DNA from: Chitinophaga pinensis | Lineage (GTDB): Bacteria > Bacteroidota > Bacteroidia > Chitinophagales > Chitinophagaceae | Assembly (NCBI GenBank): GCA_945862385.1 | Contig: CAMAXV010000006.1 | Span: 1 to 64,000 of the forward strand | Length of the DNA stretch: 64,000 bases | Direction of reading: 5' to 3' | In this document: piece by piece, positions 3,984-56,991 of the stretch | How the letters are laid out: every line of letters begins with the position of its first letter | Numbering within the stretch: position 1 is the first letter of the stretch | Notes under the pieces: generated by a model | The model's input: the letters and a program-made list of their open reading frames with translations, nothing else | Databases searched by the model: none | What the model was told of the DNA's origin: nothing | Position numbers and translations under genes: made by a program

Positions 3984-5774
3984 TTACCCCAGTTGCAGCT
4001 CCTTTAATCTGGCATAATACCCTCCGGTTTGCATAAGCTGGCTATGGGTTCCTTCTTCCACCACCCTTCCCTTCTCCAATACAAGGATTCGGGTAGCCAT
4101 TTGTACAGTTGAAAGCCTGTGTGCAATCACGATGGAGGTCCTCCCCCTGGTAAGCACACTAATGGCATGTTGAATAAGTTGCTCGGTATGGGTATCTACG
4201 GATGATGTGGCTTCATCCAGAATTAAAATAGCAGGTTTGAACAGCATGGCTCTGATAAAAGATAGTAACTGTCTTTGACCAAGCGAAAGTGTCGTCCCCC
4301 TTTCCATCACCTGATAATCGTAATCACCCGGCAGCTGCATGATAAAGTCATGGATTCCAATCATTTTGGCAGTATTTTCCACTTCAGCCCTACTGATTGC
4401 AGGATTTCTGAGTGTTATATTGTCAAGGATAGATCCTGAAAAAAGAAAAACATCCTGCAAAACTACTGCAATTCCTTTCCTCAGGCTGGCGAGGGTAAAT
4501 GCTTCAACAGGTCTGTCATCTACTAAAATGCAGCCCGACTGATGCTGGTAAAGCCTGTTGATCAGGCTGATTATCGTTGACTTACCACTTCCTGTACTTC
4601 CTACAATTGCCAGGGTTTCTCCAGGATTTACTTCAAAACTGATATCATGCAGTACCTGACTATCGTTATTATAGCTAAAATTAACCTGTTGAAAGCTGAT
4701 TTTACCCTGCACTGGCATATCTATGGCCTCAGGTGAATCTATTACCATGTCAGTGTTGTCAATAACCTTCAGCACCCTTTCACCGGCAACCATACCCATC
4801 TGGAGTACATTAAATTTATCGGCAATGACCCTTAATGGCCTGAATAACAAATTCAGCAGCAGCATAAATGAGACAATATGTCCGGCTACATAAATTGCGC
4901 TATCCGCATTTAGGCTGGAAGCATTACGGGACGCATACCACACCAGAATCCCCATGGCAAATGCCAGAACAACTTCAACAACGGGGAAAAAAATGGAATA
5001 GGCAAAAATTGCACGGATATTGGCATCCCTGTGCTTTCGATTGATGGTTTCAAAACGTTGCTTTTCGCGGGATTCTGCCGTAAATGCCTGAATAATTTGC
5101 ATGCCGGAAATATGTTCCTGAACAAATGCATTCAGTGATGCAACTGCATTTCTAACCTGTGTGAAAGACTTGTTTACACTCTCCTTAAAAAAATAGGTGG
5201 CAATAATCATGAGTGGAAAGGGAATCAGACAAACCAGTGTTAGCTGCCAGTCGGTGTAAAACATGGCACCCAGAATAGCTACTATAGAGAGAAAGTCTGC
5301 TAGAATAGGCACCAGTCCTTCTGCAAATATGTCGTTTATAGACTCAATATCATTGATTGTTCTGGTTGTTAGTGTGCCAATTGGCGTCTGATCAAATTGA
5401 CGCAGGTTTAAATTCAATATTTTCTGGTATACGGCCACCCGCATATCCTTCACTACACTGTGTCCCATCCAGGAAGTAAGGTAAGAGAAGTAAAAACGAA
5501 GAACTGCTTCAACTACAAGAATAATGAGCTGAAAGATGGTTACCAAGATCAGGAAGTCAAGAACAGTCTGATAATCAGACTGACCGGCATCATTTACCCT
5601 GGCAAGTGTTTTATTGATAATGAGGGGGCGAAGAGGTGTAAGTATCGCAAGTGTCAGGGTAAGGACTACAGAGATCCTAAACTTTCCTGCATAAGGTTTT
5701 GCGTAGGAAAATATGCGCAGCAGTAAGCTGAAATCAAATATTTTTTTTTCTTTCTTTCCGATATGTCCACTCAT
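3984..5774 (-). CDS. ABC exporter, fused membrane and ATPase domains (MsbA/MdlB type)
   Basis: This 596-residue half-transporter has an N-terminal six-helix exporter domain (about residues 20-330) and a C-terminal ATPase. Walker A is GSTGSGKST at 392-400 and Walker B is ILILDE at 516-521, followed by the D-loop SSVD. The signature motif reads LSLGQ (496-500) instead of the usual LSGGQ. Such proteins work as dimers and export lipids, peptides or drugs; the substrate cannot be told from sequence. I chose the ATG at 5774 because it forms a 4-bp ATGA overlap with the stop of the upstream gene, which implies translational coupling. An in-frame start ten codons earlier is possible. Confidence 0.9.
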   Translation of the reverse strand: MSGHIGKKEKKIFDFSLLLRIFSYAKPYAGKFRISVVLTLTLAILTPLRPLIINKTLARVNDAGQSDYQTVLDFLILVTIFQLIILVVEAVLRFYFSYLTSWMGHSVVKDMRVAVYQKILNLNLRQFDQTPIGTLTTRTINDIESINDIFAEGLVPILADFLSIVAILGAMFYTDWQLTLVCLIPFPLMIIATYFFKESVNKSFTQVRNAVASLNAFVQEHISGMQIIQAFTAESREKQRFETINRKHRDANIRAIFAYSIFFPVVEVVLAFAMGILVWYASRNASSLNADSAIYVAGHIVSFMLLLNLLFRPLRVIADKFNVLQMGMVAGERVLKVIDNTDMVIDSPEAIDMPVQGKISFQQVNFSYNNDSQVLHDISFEVNPGETLAIVGSTGSGKSTIISLINRLYQHQSGCILVDDRPVEAFTLASLRKGIAVVLQDVFLFSGSILDNITLRNPAISRAEVENTAKMIGIHDFIMQLPGDYDYQVMERGTTLSLGQRQLLSFIRAMLFKPAILILDEATSSVDTHTEQLIQHAISVLTRGRTSIVIAHRLSTVQMATRILVLEKGRVVEEGTHSQLMQTGGYYARLKELQLG

Positions 5775-7978
5775 AATTCCATACTGCTTTGCTGTTTTTC
5801 CCAATTGCGGAAGGCTTTTATAAATAATGCGCCAAGATTCTGATGCGGTGGGATATAATTATCCAGCCTTTCCCGGGCATAACCGTCGCGCAACTGGGAT
5901 GAAAGTTGTTTCCATACCCTTACCCAATTCACGCCATTGCCTGTTCTCAGCGACTCATTGATTATCCGCAAAACAGGTTCATTAACCAATCTGGTTCCAA
6001 CTTCTTTGGAAGAAACAATATGTGCATCCGGACAAACAGCCAGTACAGCATCGAGATTTTGGTAACTACCACACGAACCCAGAATAACAACCTTGGATGA
6101 TTCAGGCAACTGCTCAAGGGTATATTTCAGGTGATAGCTGTGACCCCGGTGAACAACAATGGAAGGATGCAGATTACTGTCTGCCAGATTTTGCGACAAC
6201 CTCAATTGGGCCCTGGCATCCAAATCATCACCACCGGAATTATCATGTGGTATGTTGGCATAGATCCTTACCGCTTTTCCTGTTCTGGCAATAATTTCCA
6301 CCCAATCCTCCCGCTGGATCAGCTGCCATTCTTTTCTCCCGCGGAACAAACTCAGGAAATTATGAAAAGATTCTATCCCGTCTTTGTCACCGTAAAAAAA
6401 AAGTTGCTCCACAACCATCCCAGCAGAATCAGCCAATTGGGCATTTGTAAGTCCGTATACCGGAGGAATCTTATATTTCAACATCAGTGATTTGGCACTG
6501 TCTGCAGTTGACCGGAATATGGTTTGTAAAATATCGTAAATGGCCATCCCCCGGTAATTGTTTTTTCGCGTTTGCAGTTCAAGTTGCAGGGAGATTTCCT
6601 GACTTATCCGCTTGGTTACTTCACTGTTTTCAATACTCGCATAGGAATCCGCTACATCCACTGCATTTTCAAGACTCAGACCCTTTTCCAGGCCCTGTAC
6701 AAAAGACCTCATGAGCAAATTGGCATTCATATCAGGCATTGACGCAAGAAAATGATCGAGCTTGTTATAACCTGCAGCCATGCGGATAAACTTTCGGAAA
6801 CGGTCATATTGAACACTTTGCAGCAGGCTGTCTCCTGAAGCATTTCCCAACAGTGACATCAATTTAAGGTAAACACCGCTATAACTTGATGTGTAGAGTA
6901 TGTCTTCTCCATTGACAATTATATAATATAACGCTGCTATTGATAACGGCTCAAGAACCTTGAATCTTGCTGCAGCAGGCTCATCATGAAGTGCGTTGAT
7001 TTCATTGATATAAAATTCATCTGCTTTTTTCTTGATAAGCACATTAATCTCCCTGAGCGACATGTCACTTACACCTGAACCCCTTTGAAGATACTGTTGC
7101 AGCGTGGATACCAGCAGTGCAAAATACCTGTTATCATCCTGCAATTCATGCTTGATGCTATCGATAGTTAATTCACCAAGCAGGATGGAAGGCAAGAATG
7201 GATAAATCAACCGGGCTTTGGGCTCTATCGCAATACGGGCAACAGTACTCACAAGCGGATGGGTGACCTGCTGAATTCTTCTGCCTACATCAGTGCCGGT
7301 AGCGGAGGCATAATTATAAAAATCAGCTGGAAATTCAACTGCAGCCCGGATAAGCAAAGAATCGGCAAAAGGCTGATTCAGGTAGGGCTGAATAGTAGAC
7401 AAAATCTTGTTTGGATTGAGTTCAATAAACTGTCTGTATATCAAAACCCTTATCTGCTCCAACTCTTTGTTATCAAAGAAAACAGTCTGGCTGTTGAAAA
7501 TGAAATCATTTACCCTATAGGAAAAACTAGACAAAGGTGCTATCAATGACTCTCCCGCAAAGTCGAGATTCATATAGACGATAAAAGCCGACAGTGATTC
7601 CGCCATCGACTGAAATGTAATTTGCCCATTTTGCAGGGCCTCAGGCAATTGCCACAAAAGCTTATTTAGCCCTGTCAAATACTTCACCTTAATCCTGTGG
7701 TCAAAACCGGCATGCTGTTCAATGGCTGACTGCAAACTGTCTGACCTTCTGAGGAACGAGTCTATTATGGTTATTTGATTTGCGGGTTCAGTATTCCCAT
7801 TAGGCTGATGAACTAGTTTGAGGGTAACCGTTTCAAGTTTAACTTGGATGGCATCGATATCCTCGTGAAGCTTGACACGCCTTATGTCAATTAAATGCTC
7901 CATTCCAGCAGTATTTGTCTGGGCATGGCTACAGTACGAAACCAAAACAAGCAAACCTGACATGAGGCTTCTGAACAT
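5771..7978 (-). CDS. Secreted protein with a caspase-like (clan CD) C-terminal region
   Basis: This 735-residue protein begins with a signal peptide (residues 1-19, ending CSHA before QTNT). Residues 30-580 are helical with no repeats or family I recognise. The C-terminal 150 residues carry a His/Cys pattern typical of clan CD peptidases such as CHAT, caspase and separase: SIVVHRGHSYH with His610 and His613, then a hydrophobic strand ending GSCGSY with Cys636. Just before it, residues 576-587 hold IPHDNSGGDDLD. The predicted location is the periplasm or outer surface. It is coupled by ATGA overlap to the ABC exporter. Activity is not proven; the fold could be a degenerate or non-proteolytic relative. 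Confidence 0.7.
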   Translation of the reverse strand: MFRSLMSGLLVLVSYCSHAQTNTAGMEHLIDIRRVKLHEDIDAIQVKLETVTLKLVHQPNGNTEPANQITIIDSFLRRSDSLQSAIEQHAGFDHRIKVKYLTGLNKLLWQLPEALQNGQITFQSMAESLSAFIVYMNLDFAGESLIAPLSSFSYRVNDFIFNSQTVFFDNKELEQIRVLIYRQFIELNPNKILSTIQPYLNQPFADSLLIRAAVEFPADFYNYASATGTDVGRRIQQVTHPLVSTVARIAIEPKARLIYPFLPSILLGELTIDSIKHELQDDNRYFALLVSTLQQYLQRGSGVSDMSLREINVLIKKKADEFYINEINALHDEPAAARFKVLEPLSIAALYYIIVNGEDILYTSSYSGVYLKLMSLLGNASGDSLLQSVQYDRFRKFIRMAAGYNKLDHFLASMPDMNANLLMRSFVQGLEKGLSLENAVDVADSYASIENSEVTKRISQEISLQLELQTRKNNYRGMAIYDILQTIFRSTADSAKSLMLKYKIPPVYGLTNAQLADSAGMVVEQLFFYGDKDGIESFHNFLSLFRGRKEWQLIQREDWVEIIARTGKAVRIYANIPHDNSGGDDLDARAQLRLSQNLADSNLHPSIVVHRGHSYHLKYTLEQLPESSKVVILGSCGSYQNLDAVLAVCPDAHIVSSKEVGTRLVNEPVLRIINESLRTGNGVNWVRVWKQLSSQLRDGYARERLDNYIPPHQNLGALFIKAFRNWEKQQSSMEL

Positions 7979-7982
7979 ATAA

Positions 7983-7990
7983 CAAAATTA
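7983..7990 (-). promoter_or_regulatory. Promoter -7 box, four bases before the start codon
   Basis: The minus strand reads TAATTTTG, a perfect TAnnTTTG box. Only four bases separate it from the ATG at 7978 of the caspase-like gene, so transcription would begin at or next to the start codon and the mRNA would be leaderless. Confidence 0.55.
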
Positions 7991-32747: not shown

Positions 32748-33991
32748 GGTCTGAGTACCTCAGGGATGAGAATACCATCAGGTGTTTGGTAGTTTTCAAG
32801 CAGACTGGCCATAATACGCGGTAAAGCCAGTGAACTGCCATTGAGTGTATGCACCAATTGCGTTTTGCCATTCTCGTCTCGGGTGCGGATCTTCATCCGG
32901 TTCGACTGAAATGTCTCAAAATTGGATACGGAACTCACTTCCAGCCACCTCTCCTGCGCAGCACTGTATACTTCAAAATCATAGGTCATTGCTGAAGCAA
33001 ATCCCATATCACCTCCGCACAACCTGAGGATTCTGTAAGGCAATCCGAGCGACTGGATAAGCTTTTCAACATGTACTACCATTTCTTCCAGTACCTCGTA
33101 GCTTTTATCAGCTGTGGTCATGTAGACAATTTCAACCTTATCAAACTGATGCACCCTGTTCAGTCCACGCACATCTTTTCCAAAACTGCCGGCTTCTCTC
33201 CTGAAACAAGGTGTATAAGCCGTCATTTTCACTGGTAATTCAGCAGGAGCAATGATCTCGTCTCTGTAAATATTCGTCACCGGAACTTCAGCAGTTGGAA
33301 TCAGGTATAGCTCATCTGCTGTAACATGGTACATCTGCCCTTCTTTGTCTGGCAGCTGACCGGTACCATAAGCTGAAGCAGCGTTAACCACAAAGGGAGG
33401 GATATATTCAGTATAACCAGCATTGATATTATGATCCAGAAAATATTGTATCAGCGCGCGTTGGAGCTTAGCTCCTTTGCCTTTGTAAAGTGCAAAACCA
33501 CTACCCGTGATTTTAACGCCCGTCTGGAAATCAACCAGTCCGTATTTTGTAATCAGATCCCAATGAGGTACGGCACCTGCATGCAGCTTAGGAATCTCAC
33601 CATTTTGCCTTACAACTTCATTGTCTTCCGCTGACTTTCCTGCAGGCACCTGGGAATGCGGCAGATTCGGCAACCTGACCAGCATACCGTCTAATTTGGC
33701 TTCAACAGCAGTTAGTTCCTGGGCAAGCTGATCAATCGATTCTTTCATGGATGATACAGCTGATTTAAGCGCTTCCGCCTCCTCTCGCTTACCCTGCCCC
33801 ATAAGTGCCCCAATCTCCTTGGATGAAGCATTTCTTTTGGCCAGCAGCTCGTCAGACTGAAACTGCAGTTGCTTCCGCTGGTCATCAGCAGCAATTATCT
33901 TTTCAACCAAGTCGGTATCCTGAAAGTTTTTTTTCTGCAGGCTGGCAACAACAAGTTCGCGGTTGTTACGAATAAACGATAACTGGAGCAT
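32720..33991 (-). CDS. serS: Seryl-tRNA synthetase
   Basis: This class II synthetase charges tRNA-Ser. The 423-residue protein has the N-terminal coiled-coil arm (about 30-105) that grips the long variable arm of tRNA-Ser. Its catalytic core has motif 2 (CFRREAGSFGKDVRGLNRVHQF) and motif 3 near the end (NGSSLALPRIMASLLENYQ). I placed the start at 33991 (MLQLSFIRNN), the usual N-terminus; an in-frame ATG six codons earlier would add unconserved residues. It is transcribed alone from a box at 34007. Confidence 0.97.
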   Translation of the reverse strand: MLQLSFIRNNRELVVASLQKKNFQDTDLVEKIIAADDQRKQLQFQSDELLAKRNASSKEIGALMGQGKREEAEALKSAVSSMKESIDQLAQELTAVEAKLDGMLVRLPNLPHSQVPAGKSAEDNEVVRQNGEIPKLHAGAVPHWDLITKYGLVDFQTGVKITGSGFALYKGKGAKLQRALIQYFLDHNINAGYTEYIPPFVVNAASAYGTGQLPDKEGQMYHVTADELYLIPTAEVPVTNIYRDEIIAPAELPVKMTAYTPCFRREAGSFGKDVRGLNRVHQFDKVEIVYMTTADKSYEVLEEMVVHVEKLIQSLGLPYRILRLCGGDMGFASAMTYDFEVYSAAQERWLEVSSVSNFETFQSNRMKIRTRDENGKTQLVHTLNGSSLALPRIMASLLENYQTPDGILIPEVLRPYFGSDKIS

Positions 33992-34006: not shown

Positions 34007-34014
34007 CAAAGATA
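34007..34014 (-). promoter_or_regulatory. Promoter -7 box for serS
   Basis: The minus strand reads TATCTTTG, an exact TAnnTTTG, 15 bases before the chosen serS ATG at 33991. It overlaps the extended alternative start, which supports the downstream one. Confidence 0.5.
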
Positions 34015-34034: not shown

Positions 34035-34042
34035 TAAATTTG
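34035..34042 (+). promoter_or_regulatory. Promoter -7 box, four bases before the start codon
   Basis: TAAATTTG is an exact TAnnTTTG box, followed by four bases and the ATG at 34047. The predicted transcript starts at or next to the start codon. Confidence 0.5.
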
Positions 34043-34046
34043 CAGC

Positions 34047-34391
34047 ATGATGATAGCAGATGACCTACAAGCACGCTGGTGGAAGCTGGAAGAAAAAATG
34101 ATTAACCGATTCGGGAAAAAGCCTGATTTGGAATCAATCCTGTTTCTGATAGGGATTCAGGAAGTAAGGGGAGCCGGACACCAGTTTACAAAAGAACAAA
34201 AACAGGACCTTATGCACGTGGCGGTATGCACAGTTCTGACTCCAAGCGGATATTATGAGCATGCAGGTTGGGATGAAGATGGGTGGCCACACTTCAACCA
34301 GAAAAAAGAATTATCCCCCATGAGTCTGATTGAACAGGAAAACTTCATGAAAGACCATGTACTGTTTTACTTTGATCAAAATGAATTCTGA
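34047..34391 (+). CDS. Small conserved protein of unknown function
   Basis: This 114-residue protein is soluble and acidic to neutral, with tryptophan pairs (RWWKLEEKM) and a central LIGIQEVRGAGHQFTKEQKQDLMHVAVC. It has no signal peptide and no domain I can name, but it has the balanced composition of a real protein. Its stop shares bases with the start of the cyclophilin gene (TGATG), so the two are co-translated. A -7 promoter box lies four bases before the start codon. Function unknown. Confidence 0.75.
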   Translation: MMIADDLQARWWKLEEKMINRFGKKPDLESILFLIGIQEVRGAGHQFTKEQKQDLMHVAVCTVLTPSGYYEHAGWDEDGWPHFNQKKELSPMSLIEQENFMKDHVLFYFDQNEF

Positions 34392-50472: not shown

Positions 50473-51933
50473 TTATTGTTTTTCGTTTAATACTTTGTTG
50501 AGCAGTTCTGTACTGCGTTTGGGATCGGCCTTGCCTTTGGAAATCCTTTTCACTTCTCCTACAAATAATCCGATAAGTCCTTTCTTCCCCTTCCTGTATG
50601 CTTCAACCTTATCTGGCATAGCCATGATAACTTCGTTCACCCATTGTTCAATTTCGGTTTCACCTGCATCCTGAAGTAAATTCAATGATGTTGCCAGTTG
50701 AACAGGATCAATCTCTGTATTGCTGAGTAATTCCGGTAATAATTTTTGTGCTGCAACCGAAAATGATATTTGTCCACCGGCAACCAAATCCAGCAAACCA
50801 TACCATTGAGATTTACTGATTTTTAATGAAGACCATGGCTTGTTCTGGCTATTCAGATAGGAGCGAATTGGACCAATTAAAAAGTTAACAAGTGATTTCC
50901 GGTGTGCTGTTCCGGCAGCTAATCCCTCAAAAAGTTCATTTAACTCATAATCTTCTGTGAGCTGGATGGCATCATATTCACTGAGGCTATATGCCTCTGT
51001 ATACCTGGACTGCTTTGCATCAGGCAGTTCCGGCAGTTGGTTCTTAATTTGCTGAATAAATTCCTCCGAAAATTGAAAAGGTGCCAAATCTGGTTCAGGA
51101 AAATAACGGTAATCTTCGGCGTCTTCTTTGGTTCTGATTGAAAATGTCACTTCTCTTTCAGCATCATAACTTCTTGTCTCCTGAACGATGCGCTCTCCCT
51201 TGTCTGAAAGCGCTGAAAGTCTGGCAATCTCGAGTTCTACTGCATGGCGGAGATGTTTGATTGAGTTCAGGTTCTTGACCTCCACGCGTGTTCCCAATTT
51301 TTTTTCACCGACTGGTCTTACTGATATGTTGGCATCACACCGCAAACTACCCTCCTCCATATTGCCATCACATATACCAATCCAGCGAACAAGTTGGCGG
51401 ATTTTGGTCAGGTAAGCTGCTGCCTCTTCTGCCGTATGCATATCAGGCTCAGAAACTATTTCAATAAGTGGAACGCCGGCTCTGTTGTAATCCAGGTAAG
51501 TAAGTTCCGGACTCTGATCATGCATGCTCTTGCCTGCATCTTCCTCAAGATGAATCCGGGTAAGTTTTATATCCCGTACACCTGAAGAGGTGGAAATCCT
51601 GACTATCCCGCCTGCACATATGGGTGTAGTATGCTGTGAAATCTGATATCCCTTCGGTAGGTCGGGATAAAAATAATTCTTCCTGGCAAAGTAATTGTAC
51701 CGTGCAATTTCAGACTGACAAACCAGTCCCATTTTGATAGCATGTACGATTGCTTCCTTATTCATCCTGGGCAGGGTTCCGGGGTGCCCCAGCGTAATAG
51801 CACTCACGTGGGTGTTTGGGGCACTTCCAAAAGCAGCAGAATCGCCTGCAAATAATTTAGTAAGGGTATTCAACTGAACATGAACTTCTAAACCAATTAC
51901 CGCCTCGTAATGACCCTCATGCTGATCTGACAT
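50473..51933 (-). CDS. gatB: Asp/Glu-tRNA amidotransferase subunit B
   Basis: GatB is the kinase/tRNA-binding subunit of GatCAB, which turns Glu-tRNA-Gln or Asp-tRNA-Asn into the amidated form. The 486-residue protein begins YEAVIGLEVHVQLNTLTKLF, with LGHPGTLPRMNKEAI, and has the C-terminal YqeY-like tail domain (about 330-486). gatA and gatC are elsewhere, as is usual in Bacteroidota. It starts downstream of the terminator at 51977, with a near-consensus box (TTAATTTG) just upstream. Confidence 0.96.
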   Translation of the reverse strand: MSDQHEGHYEAVIGLEVHVQLNTLTKLFAGDSAAFGSAPNTHVSAITLGHPGTLPRMNKEAIVHAIKMGLVCQSEIARYNYFARKNYFYPDLPKGYQISQHTTPICAGGIVRISTSSGVRDIKLTRIHLEEDAGKSMHDQSPELTYLDYNRAGVPLIEIVSEPDMHTAEEAAAYLTKIRQLVRWIGICDGNMEEGSLRCDANISVRPVGEKKLGTRVEVKNLNSIKHLRHAVELEIARLSALSDKGERIVQETRSYDAEREVTFSIRTKEDAEDYRYFPEPDLAPFQFSEEFIQQIKNQLPELPDAKQSRYTEAYSLSEYDAIQLTEDYELNELFEGLAAGTAHRKSLVNFLIGPIRSYLNSQNKPWSSLKISKSQWYGLLDLVAGGQISFSVAAQKLLPELLSNTEIDPVQLATSLNLLQDAGETEIEQWVNEVIMAMPDKVEAYRKGKKGLIGLFVGEVKRISKGKADPKRSTELLNKVLNEKQ

Positions 51934-56202: not shown

Positions 56203-56210
56203 TAAATTTG
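56203..56210 (+). promoter_or_regulatory. Promoter -7 box, four bases before the start codon
   Basis: TAAATTTG, an exact TAnnTTTG box, is followed by CCCT and the ATG at 56215. Spacing is identical to the boxes at 7983 and 34035, so a leaderless mRNA is predicted. Confidence 0.5.
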
Positions 56211-56214
56211 CCCT

Positions 56215-56991
56215 ATGTTGCACCAATTGGATCTATTTGGAGGAGAACCTGTTAAACTCGAGGGAAAACCTCAGCCTGCAGCTTCACGGAGTGCAAAAAC
56301 TGCCAAAGAAAAGAAATCTGCAAGTGAAATCCCAGAAACTGCAATTGCATTGGAGGAACCAGCCACTCCTTTTCTTAACCAGCCTGATTTATTCTCTGAA
56401 TTAGATAGTACAGAATCAACAGGCAACATCCCTGAAGTTGAGAAACAATCAACTATTCAACCTGAAACTTCAGCTGTTGCGTCAATTAGCGAACCTGTAA
56501 TTACTGCTCAGGCAAATGATTCTGATCATCCCTTACAAGCTGTATCAGCAATAAGAAACACATTTCCGGTAGAGGCTGAGCGAACTAACCCAAAACCAAA
56601 AAAATCAAAACAAGCGTCAGTCCTGTCTGAACAGATAAAACCGGTAACACCCGAAATCCCGGCTGATGAAACGCTTTTTTCCAAACAATATTACCCGATC
56701 AGTGAAGTGGCTGGTATGTTTGGTGTAAACATTTCACTTTTAAGGTATTGGGAAAAAGAATTTGACATCATCAAACCCAGGAAAAACAGAAAGGGAGACA
56801 GACTATTCAGACCTGCCGATATCAAAAACCTCAAACTAATTCACTTTTTGCTCAAAGAGAAAAAATACACCATCAAAGGAGCAAAAGATTTTCTTAAAAA
56901 AGGCAAATCTGTTACTGAAAAGTTTGAAGCTGTTGCTGTTTTGAAAAATATTCGTACAATGCTCGTAGAGCTAAAATCAGCATTAAGTTAG
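56215..56991 (+). CDS. MerR-family regulator with a long N-terminal tail
   Basis: This 258-residue protein has a MerR-type winged helix at about 165-235 (YYPISEVAGMFGVNISLLRYW, then FDIIKPRKNRKGDRLFRPADI), without an obvious effector domain. The first 160 residues are low-complexity, rich in Pro, Ala, Ser, Glu and Thr, and probably unfolded. The tail holds QLDLF at residues 4-8 and QPDLF at 56-60, which match the bacterial sliding-clamp binding consensus QL(S/D)LF. The DNA target is unknown. It stands alone with its own promoter box. Confidence 0.85.
   Translation: MLHQLDLFGGEPVKLEGKPQPAASRSAKTAKEKKSASEIPETAIALEEPATPFLNQPDLFSELDSTESTGNIPEVEKQSTIQPETSAVASISEPVITAQANDSDHPLQAVSAIRNTFPVEAERTNPKPKKSKQASVLSEQIKPVTPEIPADETLFSKQYYPISEVAGMFGVNISLLRYWEKEFDIIKPRKNRKGDRLFRPADIKNLKLIHFLLKEKKYTIKGAKDFLKKGKSVTEKFEAVAVLKNIRTMLVELKSALS

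Follow-up and report, generated by a model that had tools for sequence, protein, structure and literature searches.

The window analysed here is the whole 64-kb stretch of DNA (G000:C6:1-64000) from a 3.07-Mb draft genome of Chitinophaga pinensis comprising 80 contigs. At three gene starts in the window, a box of the form TAnnTTTG is separated from the ATG by exactly four bases, a spacing denoted N4 (Nk stands for k bases between box and start codon). The relevant features, with the basis of each assignment where applicable, are as follows:

34035..34042, forward strand: -7 promoter box TAAATTTG, followed by the spacer CAGC (34043-34046) and the ATG at 34047 (sequence)
34047..34391, forward strand: predicted leaderless gene for a 114-aa protein (ORF); a cyclophilin gene adjoins at 34391
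34007..34014, reverse strand: box TATCTTTG, assigned to the divergent gene for seryl-tRNA synthetase, whose ATG at 33991 follows after 15 bases (leadered contrast)
56203..56210, forward strand: -7 promoter box TAAATTTG, followed by the spacer CCCT (56211-56214) and the ATG at 56215 (sequence)
56215..56991, forward strand: gene for a MerR-type regulator of 258 aa, probably leaderless (ORF and domain match)
7983..7990, reverse strand: -7 promoter box TAATTTTG, followed by the spacer TTAT (7982-7979) and the ATG at 7978 (sequence)
5771..7978, reverse strand: gene for a 735-aa protein, leaderless status uncertain
4451..4465, reverse strand: fourth match to the pattern, inside an ABC-transporter ORF (3984-5804, reverse strand)

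The original prediction had located TAnnTTTG-N4-ATG at 7990-7976 on the reverse strand and at 34035-34049 and 56203-56217 on the forward strand. The pattern is present in all three places, and each box also satisfies the stricter form TAHHTTTG. The fourth match (4465-4451), absent from the original prediction, was rejected as a promoter and is regarded as a chance occurrence, given its position in a coding region and its G where promoter boxes avoid this base. Four matches in the window are a marginal excess over the 1.24 expected, as four or more were reached in 5 of 100 shuffles; judged by the window alone, the three N4 sites might themselves be chance matches. With so few sites, at a level attainable by chance, the window is too small to judge whether they represent a class.

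Across the whole genome, the 15-base N4 pattern occurs 101 times, compared to 36 times for the reversed pattern, 43 for N11, and 61 for N17. Because ATG counts made without gene calls gave an uneven background, which we ascribe to coding frames, gene starts were called first. Coding statistics that made no use of the box yielded 951 genes in 1.26 Mb (41% of the genome, including 1.2 Mb beyond the window). The scan against shuffled upstream regions proposed with the original prediction was run on this portion and revealed a clear enrichment: the strict box stands at N4 before 23 of 950 called starts, whereas 200 shuffles of the 40-nt upstream regions gave a mean of 0.79 and a maximum of 3. Such genes amount to 2.4% of those called, and a slightly altered version of the caller placed 22 at N4. 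Only the 56215 gene of the window is included in the 23, since the caller missed the 34047 gene and moved the 7978 start inward by 75 nt. Chance matching of the three sites is contradicted by these genome-wide counts, as well as by the conservation of the 34047 site described below; we consider it highly improbable, though it may apply to the 7990 site alone.

The distribution of spacings has two peaks. From N0 to N13, the strict box was counted 0, 1, 0, 4, 23, 3, 3, 3, 4, 1, 3, 0, 0, and 0 times at the 950 starts. The N4 peak is hence one base wide, with counts of 0-4 at each of N0-N3 and N5-N8. A second mode follows at N14-N20 (5, 9, 7, 9, 8, 4, and 4), where the mean excess per position after background subtraction is 5.82, versus 0.05 at N9-N13. 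The N4 peak is absent at 51,042 non-start ATGs (17 at N4) and is likewise absent for the reversed box at called gene starts. The spacings that share a frame with N4 (N1, N7, N10, N13) hold 1, 3, 3, and 0 boxes, which excludes a reading-frame effect as the source of the peak. In silico, such a narrow peak supports the proposal that this organism has a class of leaderless genes.

The N4 boxes share features with those of leadered genes. As in leadered boxes, the two free positions hold almost no G, and C is favored after the final G. Boxes with one substitution at a tolerated position also peak at N4 among 897 ATG starts (AAHHTTTG 5, CAHHTTTG 4, TAHHTTAG 4, TAHHTTTA 7), while the remaining substitutions reach at most 3 at this spacing. 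With respect to the features of Bacteroidota primary-sigma promoters, the sites carry the -7 box TAHHTTTG and lack the -33 element (TTTG/TTG), as no TTG was found 22-24 nt before the box at 7990, 34035, or 56203. In stretches L001-L060 and L179-L238 plus the window, TTG at -33 accompanies 3 of 60 short-leader boxes versus 27 of 154 leadered ones when four genomes are pooled (p=0.016), and 3 of 39 versus 13 of 62 in the source genome alone (p=0.096). This scarcity before short leaders hints at a promoter subtype leaning on the -7 box. The -33 element is reported to be much less evident in Flavobacterium johnsoniae (PMC6847099) and, on that account, is not strictly defining for primary-sigma promoters of Bacteroidota. 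We propose that the N4 promoters work like this promoter type, and claim membership no further.

Alternatively, the box might act as a weak secondary promoter, with the working message coming from another promoter upstream and carrying a leader. Most gene starts have no strict box nearby, hence other promoters exist, and the rarity of the -33 TTG in the short-leader set would also suit this view. However, N4 genes sit in short intergenic gaps, with a median of 66 nt (n=21) compared to 116 nt for leadered genes (n=56); all 21 are clear of their upstream neighbors. Conservation at the 34047 gene also bears on this alternative, as detailed below.

To describe the genes involved, 28 N4 sites were listed and three short ORFs (41-52 aa) were set aside, leaving 25 genes. 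Of these, 21 have no in-frame alternative start upstream. No GTG or TTG start is found at N4, though few are available for comparison given that just 55 of the 951 called starts are non-ATG. Housekeeping genes identified through Pfam/NCBIfam encode GIDA/MnmG, an amino-acid-kinase-family enzyme (which we take to be the UMP kinase PyrH), 3-deoxy-8-phosphooctulonate synthase, a radical-SAM/TRAM protein (presumably MiaB), a DNA polymerase III delta-type subunit, and CtaA. One locus (L019:15810-17843) contains divergent genes for a glycosyltransferase and a Cys/Met PLP enzyme that are both at N4 and 42 bp apart; the glycosyltransferase gene has in-frame alternative starts upstream.

The promoters could also be real and translation start at a downstream codon, in which case the messages would have ordinary leaders and the ATG at N4 would go unused. 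This would suit the 7978 gene, whose second in-frame ATG lies at N19 and thus within the leadered mode, and a further ATG follows within 117 nt in 13 of the 25 N4 genes. The other 12 have none, however, and in several N4 genes the Pfam domain opens within the first few residues: at residue 2 for DUF2480, 4 for the Cys/Met PLP enzyme, and 6 for both GIDA and AA_kinase. Use of a downstream codon would also leave unexplained why the peak at the ATG is a single base wide. We regard this explanation as quite unlikely.

The site at the 34047 gene is conserved. The 114-aa protein that it encodes has matches in 60 of 60 genomes of the family and in 24 of 24 genomes of the class, its own included. For each protein, family ortholog loci were taken as the best 30 of the 57-60 matched genomes, a choice that favors close relatives; among the best 30 of 60 for this gene, the box is at N4 in 16, N5 in four, N6 in five, N7 in one, and N3 in one. 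Three loci have no strict box, two of which carry the TTTA form at N4. A larger set of Chitinophagaceae-type named loci, the best 80 of at least 447 confirmed (close relatives again favored), includes 46 at N4, 14 at N5, nine at N6, and two at N7, or 71 of 80 at N4-N7; three of the rest are at N22-N25 and six are without a strict box. Among these orthologs, the box is at N4 in Niastella populi and Sediminibacterium salmoneum and at N6 in Segetibacter koreensis. In the 71 short-spaced orthologs, the 30 nt 5' of the box have a mean identity of 27%, which is chance level. What is kept, therefore, is the box and its nearness to the ATG. This argues against the box being a secondary promoter, an explanation that we consider unlikely. 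By contrast, the seryl-tRNA synthetase gene, which shares the intergenic gap with the 34047 gene, is leadered, with its box at N15.

In distant members of the family, the 34047 ortholog has its box at N4 (L151), at N19 (L152), or not at all (L153). Beyond the family, 19 loci of the class (L154-L172) were compared. A strict box close to the start is lacking in 13 of them, which counts against the leaderless reading; the others are at N4 in L165 and L168, N5 in L161, and N13-N19 in three. No strict box was found near the start in any of six loci outside the class. Overall, the sequence evidence strongly supports the prediction that the 34047 gene is leaderless. At default cut-offs, the protein itself matches no family in Pfam or NCBIfam; one Pfam match falls below the threshold (E 0.1). 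While its predicted model has a mean pLDDT of 91, the model matched no solved fold at E<=0.001, and the best match of its sequence to solved structures was no better than E 0.07.

The other two window genes are less conserved in their spacing. For the 56215 gene, no alternative start lies upstream in frame, and the first 117 nt downstream contain no further ATG. Among the best 30 of 57-60 loci for this MerR-type gene (L061-L090), eight have the strict box and 12 a variant in which the final G is replaced by A (TAHHTTTA), with 11 of these 12 at N4-N11. N4 in either the G or A form is found in four of the 30, its own included. The gene is probably leaderless, though not tightly conserved as such. 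Separately, TAHHTTTA may be a promoter variant specific to this gene.

For the 7978 gene, the leaderless status is uncertain due to both the second ATG at N19 and the poor retention of N4 in orthologs (two of the best 30 of 58 loci, its own included). The idea that all three window genes are conserved leaderless genes was hence rejected in the case of 7978. The 735-aa product is matched in 58 of the 60 family genomes and has no Pfam match at E<=10. It carries a C-terminal HRGHSYH...GSCGSY stretch that, in our reading, resembles a His-Cys protease.

We propose a model for the two-peaked distribution in which the box acts as the -7 element recognized by the primary sigma factor of Bacteroidota. 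In F. johnsoniae, transcription is reported to begin 4 or 5 nt past the box (PMC6847099). If the same distance applies here, a four-base gap would have the message begin with the A of the ATG, which fits the original prediction that a box near -7 would start the message at or within a base of the ATG; an element so placed occurs at 23 of 950 starts, beyond the 0.79 expected by chance. The ribosome would then initiate on the 5'-terminal AUG, with the leader absent. Combined with the N9-N13 gap, this distance would imply that leaders are either about 0-4 nt or no less than about 9-10 nt long, with those of about 5-9 nt almost absent. Promoters near genes would therefore have two states, either leaderless or nearly so (0-4 nt) or leadered (about 10 nt or more). 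We consider it very likely that such a leaderless class exists, arising from the -7 box at N4 and accompanied by two-state leaders.

The share of short-spaced boxes varies between lineages. Of the strict boxes lying no more than 100 nt from a start, about 17% are at N4 (bootstrap 11-25%) and 28% at N3-N8 (19-38%). By the same method, applied to 400 kb of each genome, the N3-N8 share is 21% (9-39%) in a second genome of f1 (the family of the source genome), 15% (6-25%) in a genome of f3, and 2% (-2 to 7%) in one of f5. Family f5 appears to be Flavobacteriaceae-like; if it is flavobacterial, its low share is compatible with the 5.5% of leaderless mRNAs reported for Flavobacterium psychrophilum (PMC9723704). 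The short class is less sharp in f1 and f3 relatives, with counts at N4, N5, and N6 of 5, 1, and 4 in G022 and 4, 3, and 2 in G061. For MnmG, used as a comparison gene, 20 of the best 30 of 57-60 loci have the box at N4-N9, eight at N17 or beyond, and two no strict box. This spread suggests that relatives tolerate very short leaders of 1-5 nt and argues for a less strict view of the gap. Together with the blunter peaks in G022 and G061, it also indicates that the 5' end would not necessarily fall exactly on the A.

Leaderless genes are widespread in bacteria. They are a known kind of gene, and their occurrence at low frequency in this phylum has already been reported. A survey of 953 bacterial genomes recorded them in one of 37 Bacteroidetes/Chlorobi genomes (2.4%), while warning of underestimation in Bacteroidetes given that it sought only Pribnow-like boxes (PMC3160421). 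The TA-led genes that it describes in Actinobacteria and Deinococcus-Thermus are alike in having an element about 12 nt before the start and little or no leader, but their box is TANNNT rather than the TAHHTTTG of C. pinensis (PMC3160421). F. psychrophilum and F. johnsoniae have the same -7 box as here (PMC9723704, PMC6847099); in the latter, 87% of leaders are reported to exceed 10 nt, leaving 13% at or below this length (PMC6847099). Short-spaced promoters make up a larger share here (28% at N3-N8) than in either species, though percentages are only roughly comparable, being shares of strict boxes here and of mapped mRNAs in transcript maps. Bacteroides thetaiotaomicron has the same promoter type and, by its different measure, a lower short-leader share, with about 3.7% of 5' UTRs reported as under 10 nt (PMC7366714). 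Leaderless mRNA has also been named as one possible cause of nucleotide bias upstream of Bacteroidetes genes (PMC5397173) and is mentioned for some members of Flavobacteriia (PMC10783764). Translation of leaderless messages is reported to resist kasugamycin (PMC5230787). Our search of the open-access literature found no papers that treat leaderless genes of Chitinophagaceae. The sharply bounded class and its strong differences between lineages appear to us to be new; together with the scarcity of leaders of intermediate length in this genome, they are what merits further study.

These lineage differences extend across the taxonomic class. In 119 of its genomes, the source genome included, counts over all ATGs (rather than called starts) total 11,856 at N4, 7,224 at N11, and 8,639 at N17. 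N4 exceeds N11 in 112 of the 119, significantly so in 42 after correction for 119 tests, and shows no excess in seven. Family f62 (G186, G215, G240) is strongly dominated by N4, with N4/N11/N17 counts of 562/75/65, and family f59 (G183, G213) has 644/228/258, suggesting that both are leaderless-rich lineages. In a single genome per family, the listed matches (50 of 223 for f62, 100 of 356 for f59) have many different spacers and lie in scattered places, and thus do not look like one repeat. In a phylum-wide sample, 24 genomes of the class have 2425 matches versus 1579 for the reversed pattern, with the former higher in 21. The 75 genomes outside the class have 2446 versus 2421, higher in 31, with families f20, f22, and f13 in excess.

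We lean towards a broader reading. Leaderless transcription from the -7 box of the phylum may be a major mode in the class that varies by lineage, perhaps the main arrangement in f62, with a two-state choice of start and selection against intermediate lengths. It would have been overlooked because the large survey sought Pribnow boxes and the transcript maps come from lineages where the mode is rare. Shine-Dalgarno sequences are generally missing from the mRNAs of Bacteroidota. If the reading is correct, start choice without a Shine-Dalgarno sequence would be two-state, with initiation either on an AUG at the 5' end or behind a leader of some 10 nt or more. A sharp leaderless class would provide a second route to start selection with a clear sequence signature, and would allow the promoter to fix start codons. 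It would also single out the lineages from which most could be learned by 5'-end mapping and translation assays, and the spacing of box and ATG at N4 would be a usable signal for gene finders in the phylum.
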